Assembly (NCBI RefSeq): GCF_027111295.1
Contig: NZ_CP114287.1
Coordinates: 4,712,001-4,776,000, forward strand
Length of the DNA: 64,000 nucleotides
Reading direction: 5' to 3'
Origin: Flavobacterium gelatinilyticum
GTDB lineage: Bacteria; Bacteroidota; Bacteroidia; Flavobacteriales; Flavobacteriaceae
Made by a program: the position numbers and the translations under genes. Of this stretch, positions 10,300 through 18,338 are shown in pieces; position 1 is the stretch's first letter, and each line of letters opens with the position of its first letter. The notes under the pieces were generated by a model. The model was not told where the DNA came from, did not search any database, and worked only from the letters and a program-made list of their open reading frames with translations.

Positions 10300-11061
10300 T
10301 TATCGAATCTCTCCAACAAATTCAGCAATTTTCCCACTTCCGCTTTCGCTTAAATGTTTAATAAAAGCACTTCCAATAATAGCCCCCTTTGCATATTTAG
10401 TTGCCTGATTGAAAGTTTCTTTATTTGAAATTCCGAAACCAACTATCTGAGGATTTTTTAAATTCAGATTTGAAATTCTTTCAAAATATTCTTCCTGAAC
10501 GTTTCCAAAACCAGATTGCGATCCTGTAACACTTGCAGAGCTTACCATATAAATAAATCCGTTTGAAACGCTGTCGATAAAACGAATTCTTTCATCTGAA
10601 GTTTGCGGTGTAATAAGGAAAACATTAATTAATCCGTATTTTTCGAAAATAGCTTTGTATTCATCTGCATAAACGTCAACCGGAAGATCCGGAATAATTA
10701 AACCATCAATTCCAATTTCAGCGCATTTTTGACAAAAAGCTTCAACGCCGTACTGTAACATCGGGTTAAAATATCCCATAATAATCAACGGAATTTTTAC
10801 GCTTTCGCGGATGTTTTGCAGCTGGTCGAAAAGAATTTGAGTAGTCATTCCGTTATGAAGTGCCTGTGTAGAACTTGCCTGAATCGTTGGTCCGTCTGCC
10901 AAAGGATCACTGAAAGGAAGTCCGATTTCGATTAAATCGACTCCGTTTTTTTCTAAATCCTGAATAATCTGCACAGTATCGTTTAAGTTTGGATATCCGG
11001 CAGAAAAATAAATAGAAAGTATCTTTTTATCTTCCTGTAATTTCTGAGTTATTCTGTTCAT
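10300..11061 (-). CDS. trpA: Tryptophan synthase alpha chain
   Basis: TrpA cleaves indole-3-glycerol phosphate to indole and glyceraldehyde 3-phosphate, passing indole to TrpB. The 253-residue TIM barrel has the catalytic Glu in DLIEIGLPFSDPLADGP and the catalytic Asp in LIIPDLPVD, plus the phosphate-binding GFGISN segment near the C-terminus. It is the last gene of the trp cluster and ends before a strong terminator. A gamma-glutamylcyclotransferase gene separates it from trpB, which is unusual because the two subunits are normally encoded next to each other. Confidence 0.97.
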   Translation of the reverse strand: MNRITQKLQEDKKILSIYFSAGYPNLNDTVQIIQDLEKNGVDLIEIGLPFSDPLADGPTIQASSTQALHNGMTTQILFDQLQNIRESVKIPLIIMGYFNPMLQYGVEAFCQKCAEIGIDGLIIPDLPVDVYADEYKAIFEKYGLINVFLITPQTSDERIRFIDSVSNGFIYMVSSASVTGSQSGFGNVQEEYFERISNLNLKNPQIVGFGISNKETFNQATKYAKGAIIGSAFIKHLSESGSGKIAEFVGEIR

Positions 11062-11075
11062 TTTTTATTTTTTAT

Positions 11076-11104
11076 CCTAACAGGTTTTTAAAACCTTTCA
11101 GGTA
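11076..11104. repeat. AGGTTTTTAAAACCT palindrome
   Basis: A 15-bp self-complementary core at 11082-11096 with flanking CAGG words lies in the 69-bp gap between trpA and the cyclotransferase gene. A related palindrome with a CAAGGTTTTAGAAACCTTG core sits at 27348. Confidence 0.55.
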
Positions 11105-11130
11105 TTGTTTTTTAACTTAATTTATTTGTT

Positions 11131-11448
11131 CTAACTCTCCAGATAAACCCATGCCGTTGTTCCGGATTTCAGTGTTACCTGAACTCTTCTGTAGGCATTT
11201 GATTCAAATAAATCTACTTTGGCTAGATCTGAAGGAGTAACATTAAAAACTACGCCGTGTATAATATCTGCGGGATTTTCGCTTGCTACCACCACAACAT
11301 AATCTGCCATTCCAAATTCTTCTTCTATCTGCAGACTTTTAAGTTTGTAACCCAGCAGCTGATCCTGAGTACCGGTTAGTACCTTATTAAAAAGGCGCAT
11401 CTGAATTTCTTTTGACCGTAATGTTCCGTAAGAGAATAACTTTTCCAT
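11131..11448 (-). CDS. Gamma-glutamylcyclotransferase-like (AIG2/GGCT) protein
   Basis: The 105-residue product starts MEKLFSYGTLRS, the YGTLR motif of the GGCT/AIG2 fold, and has the acidic EE in the IEEEFG region and the VFNVTPSDLAKVDLFE segment usual for these enzymes. Members cleave gamma-glutamyl amine or peptide bonds to release 5-oxoproline. The gene lies between trpB and trpA, flanked by palindromic repeats on both sides, so it looks inserted into the operon. No link to tryptophan synthesis is evident. Confidence 0.85.
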   Translation of the reverse strand: MEKLFSYGTLRSKEIQMRLFNKVLTGTQDQLLGYKLKSLQIEEEFGMADYVVVVASENPADIIHGVVFNVTPSDLAKVDLFESNAYRRVQVTLKSGTTAWVYLES

Positions 11449-11477
11449 AATTACTATTTTTCTCGTTATTTATTGCG

Positions 11478-11560
11478 TTAGGGATGGGAGCGGCATCCTT
11501 TTTATTTTTTCTTTAAAAATAAAAAGATATAGCGGACAGCCCGACCATAGGGAACGCCCA
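11478..11560. repeat. GCGGCATCC...GATATAGCGG hairpin element
   Basis: A long hairpin lies between trpB and the cyclotransferase gene: arms CATCCTTTTTATTTTT and AAAAATAAAAAGATAT, with outer GAGCGG and AGCGGACAG words. I recall similar GCGGCATCC/GATATAGCGG sequences in other Flavobacterium intergenic regions, but this cannot be checked here. It may also terminate or attenuate transcription before trpA. Confidence 0.6.
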
Positions 11561-11574
11561 AATTACGATTTTTA

Positions 11575-12756
11575 TTACAATTTAAAATAGTCAATATAAT
11601 TATCTAAATCTTTATCACCGCGGCCGGAAAGACTGATAACGACAACATCTGAAGGTTTGAATTTTTTCTGATCCAAAACCGCAAAAGCGTGTGCGCTTTC
11701 GATTGCCGGAATAATTCCTTCTAATTTTGTTAATTGTAAACCTGCATTCATGGCGTCATCATCTGTTACTGAGAAAAATTCCCCGCGTCCGCTTTGTGCC
11801 AAATGCGCATGCAAAGGCCCGACTCCTGGATAATCCAAACCTGCAGAAATTGAATACGGTTCTGTAATCTGCCCATCAGGAGTCTGCATTAAAAGCGTTT
11901 TACAACCATGAATAACCCCCACTTTTCCTAATTTACTTGTTGCAGCACTATGTCCGCTGTCGACCCCTTTTCCGGCAGCTTCAACGGCAATGATTCCTAC
12001 TTCTGGTTCGTGTAAAAAGTGATAATAGGTTCCGGCAGCGTTACTTCCGCCGCCAATACAAGCAACTACATAATCCGGGTTTTCACGTCCTTCTTTCTCT
12101 TTTAACTGCCATTTGATTTCTTCGGAAATAATACTCTGAAAACGTGTTACCATATCCGGATAAGGATGCGGCCCAATTGCCGATCCGATGATATAATGTG
12201 TATCAACCGGATTGTTGATCCAATCGCGAATGGCTTCGTTTGTAGCATCTTTTAAAGTTCTTGAACCCGAAAGTGCCGGACGTACTTCTGCACCCAGCAT
12301 TTTCATACGAGCTACGTTTGGTGCCTGACGCGCAATGTCGATTTCGCCCATATATACGATACACTCAATTCCCATTAAAGCGCAGACCGTAGCAGTTGCT
12401 ACACCGTGTTGTCCGGCTCCTGTTTCGGCAATGATTCTTTTTTTGCCTAAACGTTTTGCAAGCAGGATCTGACCAATGGTATTGTTTACTTTGTGTGCAC
12501 CTGTATGGTTTAAGTCTTCTCTTTTCAGGTAAACTTTAGTATTGTATTTCTCAGATAAGCGTTTTGCAAAATACAACGGACTTGGGCGTCCAACGTAATC
12601 TTTCAGCAATTGGTTAAACTCTGCTTTAAAATCAGGTTCATCCATTATACTTAGGTATTGCTGACGTAATTCTTCTACATTTGGATATAACATTTCAGGT
12701 ATGTAAGCTCCTCCAAATTCTCCGTAATATCCTTTTTCGTTAACGTTAAAACTCAT
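11575..12756 (-). CDS. trpB: Tryptophan synthase beta chain
   Basis: TrpB condenses indole with serine to form tryptophan using pyridoxal phosphate. The PLP lysine is in LNHTGAHKVNN, the phosphate cup is GGGSNAAGTYYHF, and the N-terminus GYYGEFGGAYIPEML is typical of the TrpB1 class that works with TrpA. Length (393) is normal. It begins 12 bp after trpF ends on the same strand, indicating tight co-transcription. Confidence 0.98.
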   Translation of the reverse strand: MSFNVNEKGYYGEFGGAYIPEMLYPNVEELRQQYLSIMDEPDFKAEFNQLLKDYVGRPSPLYFAKRLSEKYNTKVYLKREDLNHTGAHKVNNTIGQILLAKRLGKKRIIAETGAGQHGVATATVCALMGIECIVYMGEIDIARQAPNVARMKMLGAEVRPALSGSRTLKDATNEAIRDWINNPVDTHYIIGSAIGPHPYPDMVTRFQSIISEEIKWQLKEKEGRENPDYVVACIGGGSNAAGTYYHFLHEPEVGIIAVEAAGKGVDSGHSAATSKLGKVGVIHGCKTLLMQTPDGQITEPYSISAGLDYPGVGPLHAHLAQSGRGEFFSVTDDDAMNAGLQLTKLEGIIPAIESAHAFAVLDQKKFKPSDVVVISLSGRGDKDLDNYIDYFKL

Positions 12757-12768
12757 TTTATTTAAATT

Positions 12769-13401
12769 TTAAAAGTTGGCAACATCAAATTTTCGTTTGA
12801 AATTGCTAAATAGATTTTTATTCTTAAGCCCCGGTTCGATCTCAAATTTACTATTTACATCGACAGCATAAATAGGTAAATTGCTTTTTGAAATTTCTTC
12901 GATGGCTTTTAATTCGTTCATTCCGATGCCGCCGCTTAAAAAGAAAGGCTTTTTCGAATTGTATTTTTTTAATATCGTCCAGTCGAAAGTTGTTCCGTTT
13001 CCGCCGGGTAATTTTCCTTTGGTGTCGAAGAGAAAATAATCGCAGACATCTTCGAAAGGTTTAATAACTTCAAAATCAAAATTTTCATTGGCCGAAAATA
13101 CTTTAATAATTTCGATTTTCTTTGGCAGCTGTTTTTTTAATTCTGAACAAAATTCAACAGATTCATCTCCATGTAACTGAACGGCTTGTAAATTGTGTTT
13201 TTCGACTTTTTCCAGAATTTCTTCCTGACTCTGCTTGACGAAAATACCGACTTTTTTAATTGTTTTTATGAGTTCCGGAATATTTCCGTCACAGTATCTT
13301 GCGGATTTTTCCCAGAAAATAAATCCCATATAATCGGGTAGGAGTGCGCCTACTTCGAGGATATTTTCAGGATATTTCATGCCGCATATTTTGAGTTTCA
13401 T
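12769..13401 (-). CDS. trpF: Phosphoribosylanthranilate isomerase
   Basis: TrpF converts N-(5'-phosphoribosyl)-anthranilate into the carboxyphenylamino-deoxyribulose phosphate that feeds TrpC. The 210-residue barrel begins MKLKICGMKYPENI with the catalytic Cys in KICGMK, contains LQAVQLHGDES and the catalytic Asp in DYFLFDTKG, and ends with the LSGGIGMNEL phosphate-binding loop. It is a stand-alone enzyme here, not fused to TrpC as in enterobacteria. Confidence 0.96.
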   Translation of the reverse strand: MKLKICGMKYPENILEVGALLPDYMGFIFWEKSARYCDGNIPELIKTIKKVGIFVKQSQEEILEKVEKHNLQAVQLHGDESVEFCSELKKQLPKKIEIIKVFSANENFDFEVIKPFEDVCDYFLFDTKGKLPGGNGTTFDWTILKKYNSKKPFFLSGGIGMNELKAIEEISKSNLPIYAVDVNSKFEIEPGLKNKNLFSNFKRKFDVANF

Positions 13402-13412
13402 TTTTTTGATGC

Positions 13413-13545
13413 TTTAAGCAGTAGGCAATAAGCTTTAAGCTCTTTGCTTTGTGCTGATTTTTTTTGATGCTTTATGCTTTTTTATTGTGTGTCTTTTCGC
13501 TGTTTTTTTAAGCTTACAGCCTAAAGCTTATTGCCTACAGCTGAC
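13413..13545. repeat. Inverted repeat of the GTAGGCAATAAGCTTT type
   Basis: The arms GTAGGCAATAAGCTTT (13421-13436) and its exact complement (13523-13538) form a 16-bp perfect stem. The AAGCTT/TTAAGC words continue outside it, and AT-rich filler with repeated TTTGCTTT/ATGCTTT words lies in the loop. The right arm runs into the trpC gene and supplies its TAG stop codon. Confidence 0.8.
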
Positions 13546-14314
13546 TTATAAAGTCAATAGCTGCTTGGCCTGCGTTGTCGGTTTTCATGAAGTTTTCTCC
13601 AATTAAGAAACCTTTGTAACCGTAAGGTTTTAGTTCCTGAATTGCTTCTACGGATGAAATACCGCTTTCTGATACTTTTACAAATTCATTTGGAATCTTT
13701 GATGCCAGTTCTTTGCTGAAATCTAAGCTTACTTCGAATGTTTTCAGGTTTCTGTTATTCACGCCAATCATGTCCAAAGTCGGCATAATTGATTTTTCTA
13801 GTTCTTCCTGATTGTGGACTTCTAGAAGCACTTCCAGACCTAAACTTTTTGCAAATTCAGATAAAGATTTGATTTCTTCTCGGGTCAAAACCGCTGCGAT
13901 TAATAAAATCAAATCGGCTCCGTGTGCTTTTGCTTCTAAAATCTGGTATTCGTCTACAATAAATTCTTTCCTTAAAAGCGGAATATTTACTGATGCTCTT
14001 GCTAAAAGTAAATCGTCTAAAGATCCGCCGAAGTATTTTCCGTCTGTTAAAACTGAGATACCGCATGCACCGGCATTTTCGTAACCTTTCACTACTTCTT
14101 CAACTGTAAAATTATTGTTGATAACTGATTTTGAAGGAGAGCGGCGTTTGTGTTCCGCGATAATTCCGGAATTGCTTTCTCTTAATTTCTGACTAAGGGA
14201 AATGGTTTGTTTTCCAAAAAATACAGAAGCTTCCAATTGAGAAACCGGAATTATCGATTTCTTTAAAATCACTTCTTGTTTTTTATCTACGATTATTTTA
14301 TCTAAAATGTTCAT
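13535..14314 (-). CDS. trpC: Indole-3-glycerol phosphate synthase
   Basis: TrpC closes the indole ring to form indole-3-glycerol phosphate. The protein of 259 residues has the catalytic Lys/Glu region in IIAEHKRRSPSKS, ISVLTDGKYFGGS, LLRKEFIVDEYQI and the VNNRNLKTFEV segment. The start is taken at ATG 14314 (MNILDKIIV); the TTG 18 bases upstream lies in a repeat. The last codons and the TAG stop are embedded in the 13413-13545 palindrome, so the C-terminal tail may have been reshaped by that element. Confidence 0.96.
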   Translation of the reverse strand: MNILDKIIVDKKQEVILKKSIIPVSQLEASVFFGKQTISLSQKLRESNSGIIAEHKRRSPSKSVINNNFTVEEVVKGYENAGACGISVLTDGKYFGGSLDDLLLARASVNIPLLRKEFIVDEYQILEAKAHGADLILLIAAVLTREEIKSLSEFAKSLGLEVLLEVHNQEELEKSIMPTLDMIGVNNRNLKTFEVSLDFSKELASKIPNEFVKVSESGISSVEAIQELKPYGYKGFLIGENFMKTDNAGQAAIDFISQL

Positions 14315-14325
14315 TGTCTTTATTT

Positions 14326-14394
14326 GTTTCAAGTTTCAAGTCTTTTTAGTTTCACGTTCCAACAACCTGAAACTTGAAACCTGAAACTTGAAAC
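14326..14394. repeat. GTTTCAAG-type palindromic element (trpC/trpD spacer)
   Basis: GTTTCAAGTTTCAAG at 14326-14340 faces copies of its complement, CTTGAAACCTGAAAC and CTTGAAAC, at 14373-14394. Arms are built from a 7-bp word (GTTTCAA) repeated in tandem. The same family occurs at 15416, 16055, 16637, 23598 and 44092. Confidence 0.8.
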
Positions 14395-14401
14395 TAAAAA
14401 A

Positions 14402-15394
14402 TTATTTACTTAATTCTTGTAATTTTTGTAAAGCTTTTAATCCTTTTCCAGAGAATAAACTTTCTTTTGCCAGTTCAAAACCTTCTTGCGGTGTGCATTT
14501 GTTAACCGTTGCGATTGCCATAGCTGCATTGGCACAAACGACATTATTCTGCGCGTCGTTTCCTTTTCCTGAAATAATATTGGTGAATATTTCTGCCGAT
14601 TCTTCGATGGTTTTTCCTCCTTCTATTTCGGTTTGTGATAAAAGACGAACACCAAAATCTTCCGGTTTTATCATGCCTTCCATGTGACTGGTGATAATTT
14701 TTGTTGGGCCAGTAAGGGAAATTTCGTCATAGCCGTCAAGCGAATGCAGGATTGTGAAATTGGTATTCGTATTTTGATATAAATACGCGTACATTCTTGC
14801 CAATTCTAAGTTGAAAACTCCAACTAATTGATTTTGTGGAAAAGCCGGATTTACCATTGGTCCTAACATATTAAAGAAGGTTTTTACCGCCAGTTCTTTT
14901 CTAATTGGTCCAACATTTTTCATCGCTGGATGAAATAGGGGAGCATGCAGCACACAAATTCCTGCCTGATCGATACATTTTTCTAAAAATGCGGGATCAT
15001 TGCTGAATTTAATTCCCATTTTCTCCATTACGTTACTTGATCCCGAAATAGATGAAACACCGTAATTTCCGTGTTTTGCCACTTTAATTCCAGCTCCTGC
15101 TGATACAAAAGAGGCTAAAGTCGAGATATTGAAAGTATCTTTTCCGTCACCGCCCGTTCCGCATAAATCGATTGTATTGTAAGCTGATAAATCAACCCGA
15201 ACACACAATTCTAATAAAGCTTCACGAAAGCCCGAAAGTTCATCAATGGTAATGCTTCGCATCATAAAAACAGTCAAAAATGCCGAAATCTGACTTGGAT
15301 TATACTGACCGCTAGAAATATTAATCAATACGTTTTTTGCTTCTTCTTTTGTAAGCACTTCGTGGTTGATTAATTTGTTTAATATAGTTTTCAT
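14402..15394 (-). CDS. trpD: Anthranilate phosphoribosyltransferase
   Basis: TrpD transfers phosphoribose from PRPP to anthranilate. The 330-residue protein has the family signature CGTGGDGKDTFNIST, the KHGNYGVSSISGSSN segment and the LGPMVNPA motif, all typical of a stand-alone TrpD. It lies between trpG and trpC on the same strand, with GTTTCAAG-type palindromes in both spacers instead of the short gaps usual in a compact operon. Confidence 0.97.
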   Translation of the reverse strand: MKTILNKLINHEVLTKEEAKNVLINISSGQYNPSQISAFLTVFMMRSITIDELSGFREALLELCVRVDLSAYNTIDLCGTGGDGKDTFNISTLASFVSAGAGIKVAKHGNYGVSSISGSSNVMEKMGIKFSNDPAFLEKCIDQAGICVLHAPLFHPAMKNVGPIRKELAVKTFFNMLGPMVNPAFPQNQLVGVFNLELARMYAYLYQNTNTNFTILHSLDGYDEISLTGPTKIITSHMEGMIKPEDFGVRLLSQTEIEGGKTIEESAEIFTNIISGKGNDAQNNVVCANAAMAIATVNKCTPQEGFELAKESLFSGKGLKALQKLQELSK

Positions 15395-15415
15395 TTTTTT
15401 ATTTTTAGTTTTTTT

Positions 15416-15468
15416 GTTTCAGGTTTCAAGTTTCACGTTCCATTAACTTGAAACCTGAAACTTGAAAC
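15416..15468. repeat. GTTTCAAG-type palindromic element (trpG/trpD spacer)
   Basis: GTTTCAGGTTTCAAG (15416-15430) pairs perfectly with CTTGAAACCTGAAAC (15447-15461), and a further CTTGAAAC lies beyond. The short loop makes this the most compact copy of the family. Confidence 0.8.
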
Positions 15469-15477
15469 AAAAAGCTT

Positions 15478-16044
15478 CTAACTCTTAATCCAATTCTCTA
15501 AAATCCTTTTTCCTTCTGGTGTCAGAACGCTTTCCGGGTGAAACTGAACGCCTCTTACATCGTAATTTTTGTGTCTTAGGGACATAATCTGACCATTTTC
15601 GTCGATTGAAGTAGCTTCTAAAACGTCAGGCAGATTAGCATCGACAACCCAGGAATGGTATCTTCCAACTTCGAATTCGTTTCCTAGACCTTCAAACAAA
15701 ATTTCGTCTGAAACGACTGTTTTTACGTTTGTAGCTACGCCGTGATATACTTTGTCAAGGTTTGAAAGTGTCCCGCCAAAAACTTCTCCAATGGCTTGCT
15801 GTCCTAAACAAACTCCAAGAATACTTTTCGTTGGACTGTATTTTTCGATTACAGCTTTTAATAAACCTGCTTCATCCGGAATTCCAGGTCCCGGAGAAAG
15901 TAATATTTTCTCGAAAGATGCAATTTCATCAATATCAAATTCGTCGTTTCTGTAAACAGTTACTTCGCAGTTTAAATCTTCTAAATAGTGCACTAAATTG
16001 TAAGTGAAACTATCGTAATTGTCTATAACTAAAATCTTTTTCAT
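15478..16044 (-). CDS. trpG: Anthranilate synthase component II (glutamine amidotransferase)
   Basis: TrpG releases ammonia from glutamine for the TrpE reaction. The class I amidotransferase triad is visible: nucleophile Cys in GVCLGQQAIG and His/Glu in VQFHPESVLTPEG. The N-terminus MKKILVIDNYDSFTYNL is canonical, so ATG 16044 is preferred to the TTG 24 bases upstream, which lies in the GTTTCAAG repeat. It is separated from trpE by a lipoprotein gene and two near-identical repeats, an unusual break between two subunits of one enzyme. Confidence 0.97.
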   Translation of the reverse strand: MKKILVIDNYDSFTYNLVHYLEDLNCEVTVYRNDEFDIDEIASFEKILLSPGPGIPDEAGLLKAVIEKYSPTKSILGVCLGQQAIGEVFGGTLSNLDKVYHGVATNVKTVVSDEILFEGLGNEFEVGRYHSWVVDANLPDVLEATSIDENGQIMSLRHKNYDVRGVQFHPESVLTPEGKRILENWIKS

Positions 16045-16054
16045 TTCTATTTTT

Positions 16055-16156
16055 GTTTCAAGTTTCAAGTTTTTTTGGTTTCACGTTCCAACAACTTGAC
16101 CCGAGCGATAGCGAACTGGCGAAGCAAACCTGAAACGAAGAAAACCTGAAACTAAA
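16055..16156. repeat. Composite GTTTCAAG element with CCCGAGCGATAGCGAAC insert (left copy)
   Basis: GTTTCAAGTTTCAAG (16055-16069) and CCTGAAAC near 16143 form the arms. Between them lies a 29-bp block starting CCCGAGCGATAGCGAAC. A second composite of the same order and content lies at 16637-16739, so the two form roughly 100-bp direct repeats bracketing the lipoprotein gene. Confidence 0.8.
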
Positions 16157-16161
16157 TTTTC

Positions 16162-16605
16162 TTATTTTTCTCGAACGTATTTCTCGATAATAACTCGATC
16201 TACGCCTAATTTTTCTATTTTTTCTACTCCTTTTTGAATTAATGTGTCGTTTTGCACTTTCACTACAAATTCAAATTTGTTGTTTTCCCAATCACGGTTG
16301 TTGAAGAATTCTAAGTTTTCTGTGTAAATACTGTCTTTTAAAGTATATTTTCCTCCTCCGGCGAAATACACCGCTGTTGTCGAATCTTTTCCGTTTTTTA
16401 AATCATGATTCAAAAAAGCAAAATGTGTATCATTAATAATCTTAATCATTTTTGTTTTTGAATTGAAAGTGGAAAAAGTGGAATCTTTTTCTATTGTTTC
16501 AGCTGATATAAGACGCCAGGTTCCTTCAATCGGGTTGTGCTTTTTTTCAGAATTGCAAGATGTCATCGTAATGATTAAAACTAAAATTGATACTGCTTTT
16601 TTCAT
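16162..16605 (-). CDS. Putative lipocalin-like lipoprotein inside the trp operon
   Basis: The 147-residue product has a lipoprotein signal (MKKAVSILVLIITMTSC, Cys17) and then IEGTWRLISAE, the opening seen in small lipocalin-like or DUF4488-type Bacteroidota lipoproteins. The rest is a beta-rich pattern ending in DRVIIEKYVREK. No enzymatic residues are evident, and a specific function cannot be assigned. It sits between trpE and trpG and is bracketed by two nearly identical repeats, so it looks like a passenger inserted into, or at least mobilisable within, the operon. Confidence 0.75.
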   Translation of the reverse strand: MKKAVSILVLIITMTSCNSEKKHNPIEGTWRLISAETIEKDSTFSTFNSKTKMIKIINDTHFAFLNHDLKNGKDSTTAVYFAGGGKYTLKDSIYTENLEFFNNRDWENNKFEFVVKVQNDTLIQKGVEKIEKLGVDRVIIEKYVREK

Positions 16606-16636: not shown

Positions 16637-16739
16637 GTTTCAAGTTTCAAGTTTCAGGTTGTTTCACGTTTCAACCAACTTGACCCGAGCGATAGCGAAC
16701 TGGCGAAGCAAACTTGAAACAAAACAAACTTGAAACTAA
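16637..16739. repeat. Composite GTTTCAAG element with CCCGAGCGATAGCGAAC insert (right copy)
   Basis: The left arm GTTTCAAGTTTCAAGTTTCA (16637-16656), the same 29-bp CCCGAGCG block, and right arms CTTGAAAC at 16713 and 16729 repeat the organisation of the 16055 copy. Its end contributes the TAG stop codon of trpE (16736-16738). Confidence 0.8.
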
Positions 16740-18136
16740 ATTTGTTCTGCCATTTCCAGCGCGGTATTTAATGCTCTTAATTTGTTATAAACTTCCTGCA
16801 TTTCACTTTCTTCATCAGAACTTGCTACGATTCCGGCTCCGGCCTGACAATGTAATTGATGATTTTTAGAAAGGAAAGTACGAATCATAATGGCGTGGTT
16901 AAAGTTTCCGTCAAAATCCATAACTCCAATGGCACCACCGTAGAAATTACGATTAGTTTTTTCATAGTCTTCGATCAATTGCATCGCTCTGTGTTTTGGA
17001 GCGCCGCTTAAAGTTCCGGCTGGGAAAGTATCAGCAACGACCTGCATTGTAGTTGCTTTGTCGTGTAGATGTCCTGTGACTTTTGAAACCAGGTGAATTA
17101 CGTGAGAGAAAAACTGAACTTCTCTGTATTTTTCTACATTTACATCGTGTCCGTTGCGGCTTAAATCATTTCGGGCTAAATCGACAAGCATGACGTGTTC
17201 GCTGTTTTCTTTTTTATCTTCCGAAAGTTCTTTGGCTAAAAGTGCATCACGTTCGTCATTTCCGGTTCTTTTGAAAGTTCCGGCAATTGGGTGAATTTCG
17301 GCTTTTCTGTTTTTTACAATAATTTGTGCTTCGGGCGAAGAACCAAATATTTTGAAATCCCCGTAATCAAAAAAGAACAAATACGGAGAAGGATTAATGC
17401 TTCTTAAAGCTCTGTAAACATTAAATTCATCTCCTTTAAAGCCTTGTGTAAAACGTCGAGATAATACTAATTGAAATACATCTCCTCTAAAACAATGTTT
17501 TTTAGCCAAAGCTACATTGTGTTTGAATTCCTCATCGGTCAGGTTAGAGAAACCTTCGCCTTCTTTGGTGAATTTGTATAAAGCGATATTTCTTGACTGT
17601 AGTAATTGTTCAATTTCAGAGATATTGTTTCTTCCATCAACACTGTGGCAGAAAATATAGGCTTCGTTTTTGAAGTGGTTAATGGCAATGATGTTTTGGT
17701 AAACTGCATAAAACACATCCGGAATTGAAGTGGCATTGTCTTTTTTTGCAATAGATACCTTCTCGAAATAACGTACAGCATCATAAGAAATGTATCCGAA
17801 TAGGCCGTTATTGATAAATTTAAAATCGTTTTTTTCCGATTTAAATTGATTTGAAAAATCCTGGATTACTTCTGGAATGTTTGTTGAAGCATCAATTTTA
17901 GTTTGTTCCGAAGTTCCGTCAGGAAAAGTTTTTGAGATTACTTCGTTTTCAATTTTAATTGTTGCGATAGGATTACAGCAGATATAAGAAAAACTGTTAT
18001 CATTTCCGTGATAATCACTACTTTCAAGTAACAAACTATTTGGGAATTTATCTCTTATTTTAAAATAAATACTTACCGGCGTAATGGTGTCTGCCAGAAT
18101 CTGCTTGTAATGTGTGTTGAGTATAAAAGGTTTCAA
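16736..18136 (-). CDS. trpE: Anthranilate synthase component I
   Basis: TrpE makes anthranilate from chorismate with ammonia from TrpG. The 466-residue protein has the LLES motif of the tryptophan feedback site near residue 35, and the catalytic core motifs FKRTGNDERDALL, ENSEHVMLVDLARND and PAGTLSGAPKHRAM. The conserved N-terminus MKPFILNTHYKQIL starts with TTG at 18136: reading upstream in frame a stop codon appears before any ATG, and the first internal Met is deep in the fold. A TTG start could lower basal translation. Transcription is controlled by the leader peptide and attenuator immediately upstream. Confidence 0.95.
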   Translation of the reverse strand: MKPFILNTHYKQILADTITPVSIYFKIRDKFPNSLLLESSDYHGNDNSFSYICCNPIATIKIENEVISKTFPDGTSEQTKIDASTNIPEVIQDFSNQFKSEKNDFKFINNGLFGYISYDAVRYFEKVSIAKKDNATSIPDVFYAVYQNIIAINHFKNEAYIFCHSVDGRNNISEIEQLLQSRNIALYKFTKEGEGFSNLTDEEFKHNVALAKKHCFRGDVFQLVLSRRFTQGFKGDEFNVYRALRSINPSPYLFFFDYGDFKIFGSSPEAQIIVKNRKAEIHPIAGTFKRTGNDERDALLAKELSEDKKENSEHVMLVDLARNDLSRNGHDVNVEKYREVQFFSHVIHLVSKVTGHLHDKATTMQVVADTFPAGTLSGAPKHRAMQLIEDYEKTNRNFYGGAIGVMDFDGNFNHAIMIRTFLSKNHQLHCQAGAGIVASSDEESEMQEVYNKLRALNTALEMAEQI

Positions 18137-18186: not shown

Positions 18187-18220
18187 AAAAAAAAGGGCTT
18201 GTCGTGATGACAAGCCCTTT
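18187..18220 (-). terminator. trp attenuator terminator
   Basis: On the minus strand a 12-bp perfect stem, AAAGGGCTTGTC paired with GACAAGCCCTTT, has a 5-base loop and ends in eight T. It lies between the leader peptide and trpE. The stretch TCACGAC in its loop and 3' arm (18201-18207) is exactly complementary to GTCGTGA at the end of the leader coding region (18257-18263). The two can pair to form an antiterminator. Confidence 0.9.
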
Positions 18221-18256
18221 ATATTTATAGTTTAACAGTACCATAGGAAGCTTCGT

Positions 18257-18313
18257 TCACGACGTTTGACGTAAATTCTTCCACCACCAAGTATTGTTCA
18301 TTAATGTTTTCAT
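18257..18313 (-). CDS. trpL: trp operon leader peptide with three consecutive Trp codons
   Basis: An 18-codon open frame, MKTLMNNTWWWKNLRQTS, starts 10-20 bases after a good -7 box and ends 37 bases before the attenuator stem. Three adjacent TGG codons (18281-18289) are the hallmark of a tryptophan-sensing leader. A ribosome stalled there leaves GTCGTGA (18257-18263) free to pair with the terminator. A ribosome reaching the TGA stop covers that segment and lets the terminator fold. GGAAG, which includes the last Trp codon's GG, can also pair with CTTCC downstream. A shorter version from the second Met (18301) is possible. It is too small for usual gene callers. Confidence 0.9.
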   Translation of the reverse strand: MKTLMNNTWWWKNLRQTS

Positions 18314-18330
18314 ATCTGTTTTTGTTGAGA

Positions 18331-18338
18331 CAAATATA
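18331..18338 (-). promoter_or_regulatory. Candidate -7 box of the trp operon promoter
   Basis: The minus strand reads TATATTTG, a perfect match to TAnnTTTG. An upstream TTC (not TTG) lies 18 bp away. Transcription would begin near 18324, about 10 bases before the leader ATG. Confidence 0.65.

Follow-up and report, generated by a model that had tools for sequence, protein, structure and literature searches.

The leader in front of trpE in the genome of Flavobacterium gelatinilyticum very probably forms, to judge from comparison of its sequence with those of relatives, a ribosome-mediated attenuator of the tryptophan operon, in which a leader peptide and a terminator act together with a short antiterminator strand (R2), and whose core appears to be exchangeable to lysine codons. 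The parts that define this mechanistic class, that is leader peptide, sensor codons, terminator and competing helix, are all present, and regulation of the trp operon by the leader is considered likely. The element was found in a stretch of 64,000 nucleotides, referred to here as the window. The window copy itself is an ordinary member of a known RNA family; the variant lies in copies with lysine codons and in the use of the terminator loop as a target of R2. In 16 related genomes, nearly the same RNA core has Lys codons instead of the Trp codons and stands upstream of an aspartokinase gene, so that a single design of switch would act for two amino acids.

The trp leader of the window

The -7 box, the 18-codon leader, the three TGG codons and the complement of R2 were found on the minus strand between 18338 and 18187 with the positions and letters of the original prediction (Table 1). 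The terminator had been described as a 12-bp stem with T8; the hairpin is there, while the count uses three T twice, and the site is better read as 12 bp followed by 5 unpaired T, or as 9 bp followed by 8 T. The distance from the leader stop to the hairpin is 36 nt. Two terminator-like sites were detected in the region against a mean of 0.1 in shuffled sequences, the second being the same hairpin read on the plus strand. Tested against shuffled R2, the helix between R2 and the hairpin gives p = 0.003. R2 complements the loop and the 3' arm, and the 5' arm was rejected as the partner of the antiterminator strand in the window.

Table 1. Features of the trp leader and the trp operon, in window coordinates
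Feature	Position	Strand	Remarks
-7 promoter box TATATTTG	18331..18338	-	Bacteroidota type TAnnTTTG; box starts 25 nt 5' of the leader ATG
Leader ORF, 18 codons and stop, MKTLMNNTWWWKNLRQTS*	18257..18313	-	ATG at 18313, TGA ending at 18257
Regulatory codons TGG TGG TGG	18281..18289	-	Read from the sequence
R2, candidate antiterminator strand, GTCGTGA	18257..18263	-	Includes the leader stop codon; begins 17 nt past the last Trp codon
Predicted R2-covering hairpin	18256..18275	-	TTTACG (18275-18270) with CGTGAA (18261-18256); in the MFE structure of the full-length ribosome-free RNA
Terminator hairpin AAAGGGCTTGTC-ATCAC-GACAAGCCCTTT	18192..18220	-	Arms 18220-18209 and 18203-18192, loop 18208-18204
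R3, TCACGAC, complement of R2	18201..18207	-	Loop and top of the 3' arm
T8 tract	18187..18194	-	First three T double as partners in the 12-bp stem
trpE	16736..18136	-	TTG start, 120 nt behind the leader stop codon; Pfam PF00425 and PF04715
trpG, trpD, trpC, trpF, trpB, GGACT-domain ORF, trpA	10300..16068	-	Rest of the operon

A member of the Bacteroid-trp family

The covariance model of the Rfam family RF01692 (Bacteroid-trp) matches 18209..18333 on the minus strand with 70.7 bits, the gathering threshold being 49. The definition of this family includes a short ORF with Trp codons, and the window agrees with it in score, in its Trp-codon ORF (MKTLMNNTWWWKNLRQTS*) and in its site before tryptophan biosynthesis genes. 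In the accessible part of Weinberg et al. 2010 (PMC2864571), Table 1 lists Bacteroid-trp with a y for RNA and for cis-regulatory and an n for switch, and this earlier listing, together with the match, makes the window copy a member of a known family and not a new one. A trp leader of F. psychrophilum had also been noted in print (PMC6414381), with neither its terminator nor the pairing of the leader analysed in the available text of that paper. With RF01692, as far as its accessible description goes, the window has in common the sequence, the structure model, the Trp-codon ORF and the position before trp genes. Since the model goes no further than the terminator's 5' arm (GGCUUGUC), the 3' arm and the pairing of R2 with the loop lie outside it. 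What is new, as far as the literature searched shows (the loop pairing was not queried by name), is the loop-plus-arm target at a near-fixed spacing and the codon-swapped lysine version.

Other known leader types were looked for in the window. A T-box or a lysine riboswitch as the identity of the element was ruled out, neither having a gathering-level Rfam match in the window, and the E. coli-type Trp_leader (RF00513) is absent from the window's two matches at that level.

Conservation of the leader and terminator

How widely such attenuators occur in Bacteroidota was a question that the original prediction had raised, and it can now be answered in part. RF01692 matches were found in 78 of 121 genomes of the genus and 42 of 395 genomes of the phylum (both at E 0.001), and in 231 of 299 genomes of the family and 32 of 101 genomes of another family of the class (both at E 0.01). 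Among the 43 genus genomes without a match, only 8 contain a TrpE at E 1e-60 (43-52% identity to that of the window), and in all 8 (L171-L178) it is preceded by a Trp-codon leader and terminator of the same layout but of different sequence. RF01692 gave no match to these eight divergent leaders at gathering level. Some of these divergent trp regions may have come from elsewhere.

The distribution also bears on the idea that the hairpin simply terminates transcription of the upstream gene, the Trp codons being incidental. A 425-aa ORF (19713-18436) does lie upstream on the same strand, but the conserved -7 box, the Trp run and R2 sit between it and the hairpin, and the other 35 of the 43 genus genomes without an RF01692 match are also without TrpE at E 1e-60, which leaves this explanation with almost no credence beside attenuation of the trp operon.

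The leaders compared number 178 with duplicates and 170 when only distinct ones are counted, and the set takes in one lysine leader (L103, of genome G072). A trp gene follows 177 of the 178 (trpE in 140, trpB in 35 and trpD in 2), and 167 have a TAnnTTTG box at most 70 nt from the leader ATG, which is true of 6.1% of shuffled upstream regions. The TGG run is three codons long in 148 of the 170 distinct leaders, two in 21 and one in a single leader, and this sole exception to a run of two or three is the lysine leader L103. At 38 of the 178 loci (e.g., L063, L067, L079 and L153) only 9-16 nt separate the start of the -7 box from the leader ATG, a distance so short that the mRNA of the leader peptide may start at or next to the ATG, i.e., be leaderless. 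The Trp leader L217 (G918) apparently starts with GTG instead of ATG.

An alignment of relatives had been proposed as the way to check the prediction, and in it the TGG run, the terminator and the R2 complement are all kept, with compensatory changes in the terminator. This alignment (A1) comprises 88 of 161 distinct leaders, L103 and L171-L178 having been left out. For the terminator, 99.7% of cells are paired and double changes occur at 10 of 12 pairs, with 0 of 500 shuffles reaching this; in the fold-back hairpin that covers R2, 81.6% of cells are paired in the same 88 leaders, with double changes at 4 of 6 pairs. The stem drawn by Rfam for RF01692 is 69.6% paired, and it was rejected as main evidence because 408 of 500 shuffles equal its count of double-changed pairs. 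A local hairpin of at least 5 bp behind the Trp codons is present in 171 of the 178 leaders, yet also in 71% of shuffles.

R2 and the competing helix

The target of R2 was the loop together with the top of the 3' arm in 152 of the 170 distinct leaders; in the others listed it was the 3' arm only (6), the 5' arm plus the loop (4), a spanning site (4) or the 5' arm only (4). In A1 the helix between R2 and its target R3 is 92.8% paired, compared with at most 46.6% when the strands are slid, and its covariation score was reached by 0 of 500 shuffles. Only 1 of its 7 pairs varies on both sides, with G-C replaced by A-U in 18 of the 88 leaders, and all of 500 shuffles have at least as many double-changed pairs. 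Beyond this one covarying pair, the sequences lend R2:R3 support from unrelated letters in the same layout: in L171 the pairing is CTTGGAA with TTCCAAG, and in L174 it is GTGAACAGC with GCTGTTCAC, on the 5' arm plus the loop.

Against shuffled R2, p < 0.05 was obtained in 147 of the 170 distinct leaders and not reached in 23, among the poor fits being L110 (p 0.86), L114 (p 0.32) and L131 (p 0.14). Taken as 21 clusters of R2, the same comparison gives a nominal Fisher p of 2.8e-13, which is not an exact probability since the clusters are related. In a swap control, 0-18 of 20 foreign R2 segments score equally high, and this control discriminates poorly because many R2 clusters share letters.

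The geometry is nearly constant: 155 of 170 leaders have 17-20 nt between the last Trp codon and the start of R2. In all 170 the best R2 helix requires at least two pairs at the top of the terminator to be opened, which fits mutual exclusion of the two structures. The position of the leader stop codon is more variable: in 124 of 170 leaders its last base falls 6-7 nt beyond the start of R2, in 14 at or before that start, and in 9 as far as 32-45 nt beyond it, where a ribosome on the stop codon would not cover R2.

These differing ends of the leader frames also count against a function in trans for the peptide or for the leader RNA that ends at the terminator, of the kind described for peTrpL and rnTrpL of Sinorhizobium meliloti in the text available of two reports (PMC7298713, PMC10117765). 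A short transcript ending at the terminator is indeed predicted here and the peptide is conserved, but its conservation past the Trp run can stem from the RNA sequences of R2 and of the fold-back hairpin. Such a role is very unlikely, and it would be compatible with attenuation.

Proposed mechanism of attenuation

The reading of the trpE leader as an attenuator thus stands on the sequence side as originally predicted, with the partner of R2 now placed at the loop plus 3' arm and with the stop codon found inside R2 in some leaders and outside it in others. According to the proposed mechanism, a ribosome that reaches the stop codon would cover R2, the terminator would form and transcription would end before trpE. 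With no ribosome on the leader, R2 would fold back on the preceding codons, and the outcome would again be a terminator and an end of transcription before trpE. When Trp-tRNA is short, a ribosome stalled at the Trp codons would not cover R2, and R2, lying free in front of the ribosome, would capture the loop and the top of the 3' arm as these emerge from the polymerase; this capture would block nucleation of the hairpin, and trpE would be transcribed.

Folding energies were computed with the ribosome footprint masked, on the assumption that it extends 14 nt beyond the first base of the A-site codon. If the ribosome occupies the third Trp codon, the antiterminator has the lowest energy up to the point where about six bases of the 3' arm have emerged (-16.9 vs -9.5 kcal/mol), whereas once the terminator is complete it wins by about 6 kcal/mol (-23.2 vs -17.1). 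Since the complete terminator is the more stable, the switch must be kinetic, with R2 meeting the loop before the 3' arm is finished. In the masked folding, a ribosome at the stop codon covers R2, and the terminator is formed. In ribosome-free RNA the antiterminator still has the lowest energy once three bases of the 3' arm have emerged (-19.3 vs -17.1), and at six bases it comes within 0.9 kcal/mol of the lowest (-20.5 vs -21.4); energetically, therefore, folding back is a weak step.

About nine lower pairs of the terminator stay intact when R2 is paired, and the complementarity of R2 to the loop could instead reflect a pseudoknot, compatible with the lower stem, which tunes or stabilises the terminator without acting as an antiterminator. 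That R2:R3 takes up no more than 2-7 arm bases, all at the terminator's top, which would allow the lower stem to persist, and that the complete terminator wins thermodynamically would both suit a pseudoknot. However, the best helix enters the stem, and is not confined to the loop, in 170 of 170 leaders, which means that R2 and the top terminator pairs exclude each other, and Trp and Lys leaders place R2 at similar distances from their sensor codons, an arrangement that suggests gating by a stalled ribosome. The pseudoknot is accordingly regarded as unlikely, and antitermination by R2 remains the preferred account.

Copies with lysine codons

A weak second RF01692 match in genome G072 (L103; 46.2 bits, below the cut-off of 49) lies before an aspartokinase gene. 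A search pattern made of the core, that is R2, 5' arm, loop and 3' arm, matches 149 of 249 genus genomes and none in a reversed-pattern control. Of the 30 genus loci listed from this search, 28 stand before trpE and 2 before aspartokinase, and a further 16 genus regions, picked for unusual letters or places, divide equally (8 and 8); with both sets of loci together, the core is found before aspartokinase in 8 genomes. In the family, a similar core pattern matches 200 of 299 genomes and 0 in the control, and 20 regions chosen from these matches comprise 18 before trpE and 2 before aspartokinase.

When the aspartokinase protein was searched for at E 1e-100, it was found in 9 of 121 genus genomes, that of the window (G000) not being one of them, and a lysine leader precedes the gene in 9 of 9. 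At E 1e-90 its relatives are present in 103 of 299 family genomes, and 30 of the 103 upstream regions were read by a simple scan for a terminator and an ORF, by which a lysine leader was judged present in 3, from two other genera, and absent in 27. On the model for 'lysine-sensitive aspartokinase 3' the protein scores 396.6 bits, short of the cut-off of 455, and it passes the general aspartate kinase model; in both operons read, lysA comes next (386.5 and 383.1 bits; cut-off 297.9).

The motif Lys-Lys-x-Lys-Lys is present in 13 of 16 lysine leaders and three of its four Lys in the other 3, with 43 AAG and 18 AAA codons in all. All 16 have R2 starting 16-18 nt behind their last Lys codon, and 14 of 16 reach p < 0.05 against shuffled R2 (nominal Fisher p 1.3e-13). 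Fifteen of them have 21-25 of the 30 nt behind the sensor codons in common with a Trp leader, where the shuffled maximum is 19. The remaining one, L260, has 16 of 30 nt in common and other R2 letters; its stop codon ends 15 nt after the last Lys codon, and its helix spans the 5' arm, the loop and one base of the 3' arm.

No lysine riboswitch (RF00168) was found in 16 genomes, namely 13 leader-bearing genus genomes, G628, G693 and the window's own (G844 was left out), while the same family is present in 4 of 14 control genomes. In the 15 lysine-leader loci scanned (L212 was left out), no Rfam family, RF01692 included, matched at gathering level. A lysine-leader scan of named organisms, whose pattern lacked one base in the stretch from the Arg codon to R2, gave 13 matches; by a simple pattern none of the 13 has a terminator core nearby, and for that reason they were not counted as lysine leaders.

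Four of the 121 genus genomes (G072, G020, G058 and G041) have both a Trp and a Lys attenuator. The frames of their Trp leaders (L099, L100, L104 and L177) end 33-45 nt past the start of R2, as is the case in only 9 of 170.

It is probable, on the whole, that a single attenuator cassette, made up of the fold-back hairpin, R2 and a terminator with a capturable loop at a near-fixed distance behind the sensor codons, is common to the two operons, with only the sensor codons exchanged: Trp-Trp-Trp for trp and Lys-Lys-x-Lys-Lys for aspartokinase-lysA. If so, a lysine-codon leader peptide would be the lysine sensor where no lysine riboswitch was found, and loop capture would be a distinct antitermination geometry of Bacteroidota. 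The lysine copies are what looks like a natural codon swap. Taken together, the results turn a table entry of 2010 into a testable mechanism whose sensor codons, spacing behind them, R2 and loop can each be mutated, and they provide a simple rule for finding other amino-acid leaders of Bacteroidota that sequence models miss.

Relation to other leaders

The E. coli trp attenuator (RF00513) likewise combines a leader peptide bearing sensor codons, competing antiterminator and terminator helices and an intrinsic terminator. As described in the available text of PMC1183508, the trp and his attenuators follow a classical order of segments, with II:III as antiterminator and III:IV as terminator, and in E. 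coli trp segment III is common to both helices. The partner of the antiterminator strand thus differs, being the loop plus the 3' arm in the window and segment III, mainly the 5' arm of the terminator, in E. coli.

For the lysine copies, the literature searched (titles, beginnings of abstracts and passages, with subscription papers largely outside its scope) contained no lysine-codon leader of lysC or lysA. SEP5 of S. meliloti, in the part of PMC10117765 that is accessible, resembles them as a small ORF in a 5' UTR with lysine codons and a suggested leader peptide, but it has six Thr and three Lys codons, precedes an aspartate dehydrogenase gene and is not linked there to an RF01692-like core. 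The accessible passages of two other papers list lysC as a riboswitch target in Shewanella (PMC2659441) and describe short ORFs in 5' UTRs of Bacteroides thetaiotaomicron as reminiscent of leader peptides (PMC7366714).

The trp operon and neighbouring features

The best NCBIfam model for the window TrpE is TIGR00564, with 440.8 bits, below the cut-off of 517.7, and the window TrpF reaches no NCBIfam cut-off. Between trpE and trpG lies a 147-aa ORF (16162-16605, minus strand) with a lipoprotein-like start and no match in NCBIfam or Pfam. A Flavo-1 RNA (RF01705, 66.3 bits) is found at 11470-11550 on the plus strand, inside the trp operon on the opposite strand and between trpB and the GGACT-domain ORF.

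Elsewhere in the window's own genome (G000:C1), an ORF MKSNSIKYHSTSITAQTEAAIAATTISTTTTTTP* (L284) lies about 226 nt 5' of an 819-aa ORF at 1440051 on the plus strand, which contains an aspartokinase domain and is probably thrA. Rich in Thr, this small ORF is a thrL-type leader that carries a small CCCC/GGGG hairpin at its end.
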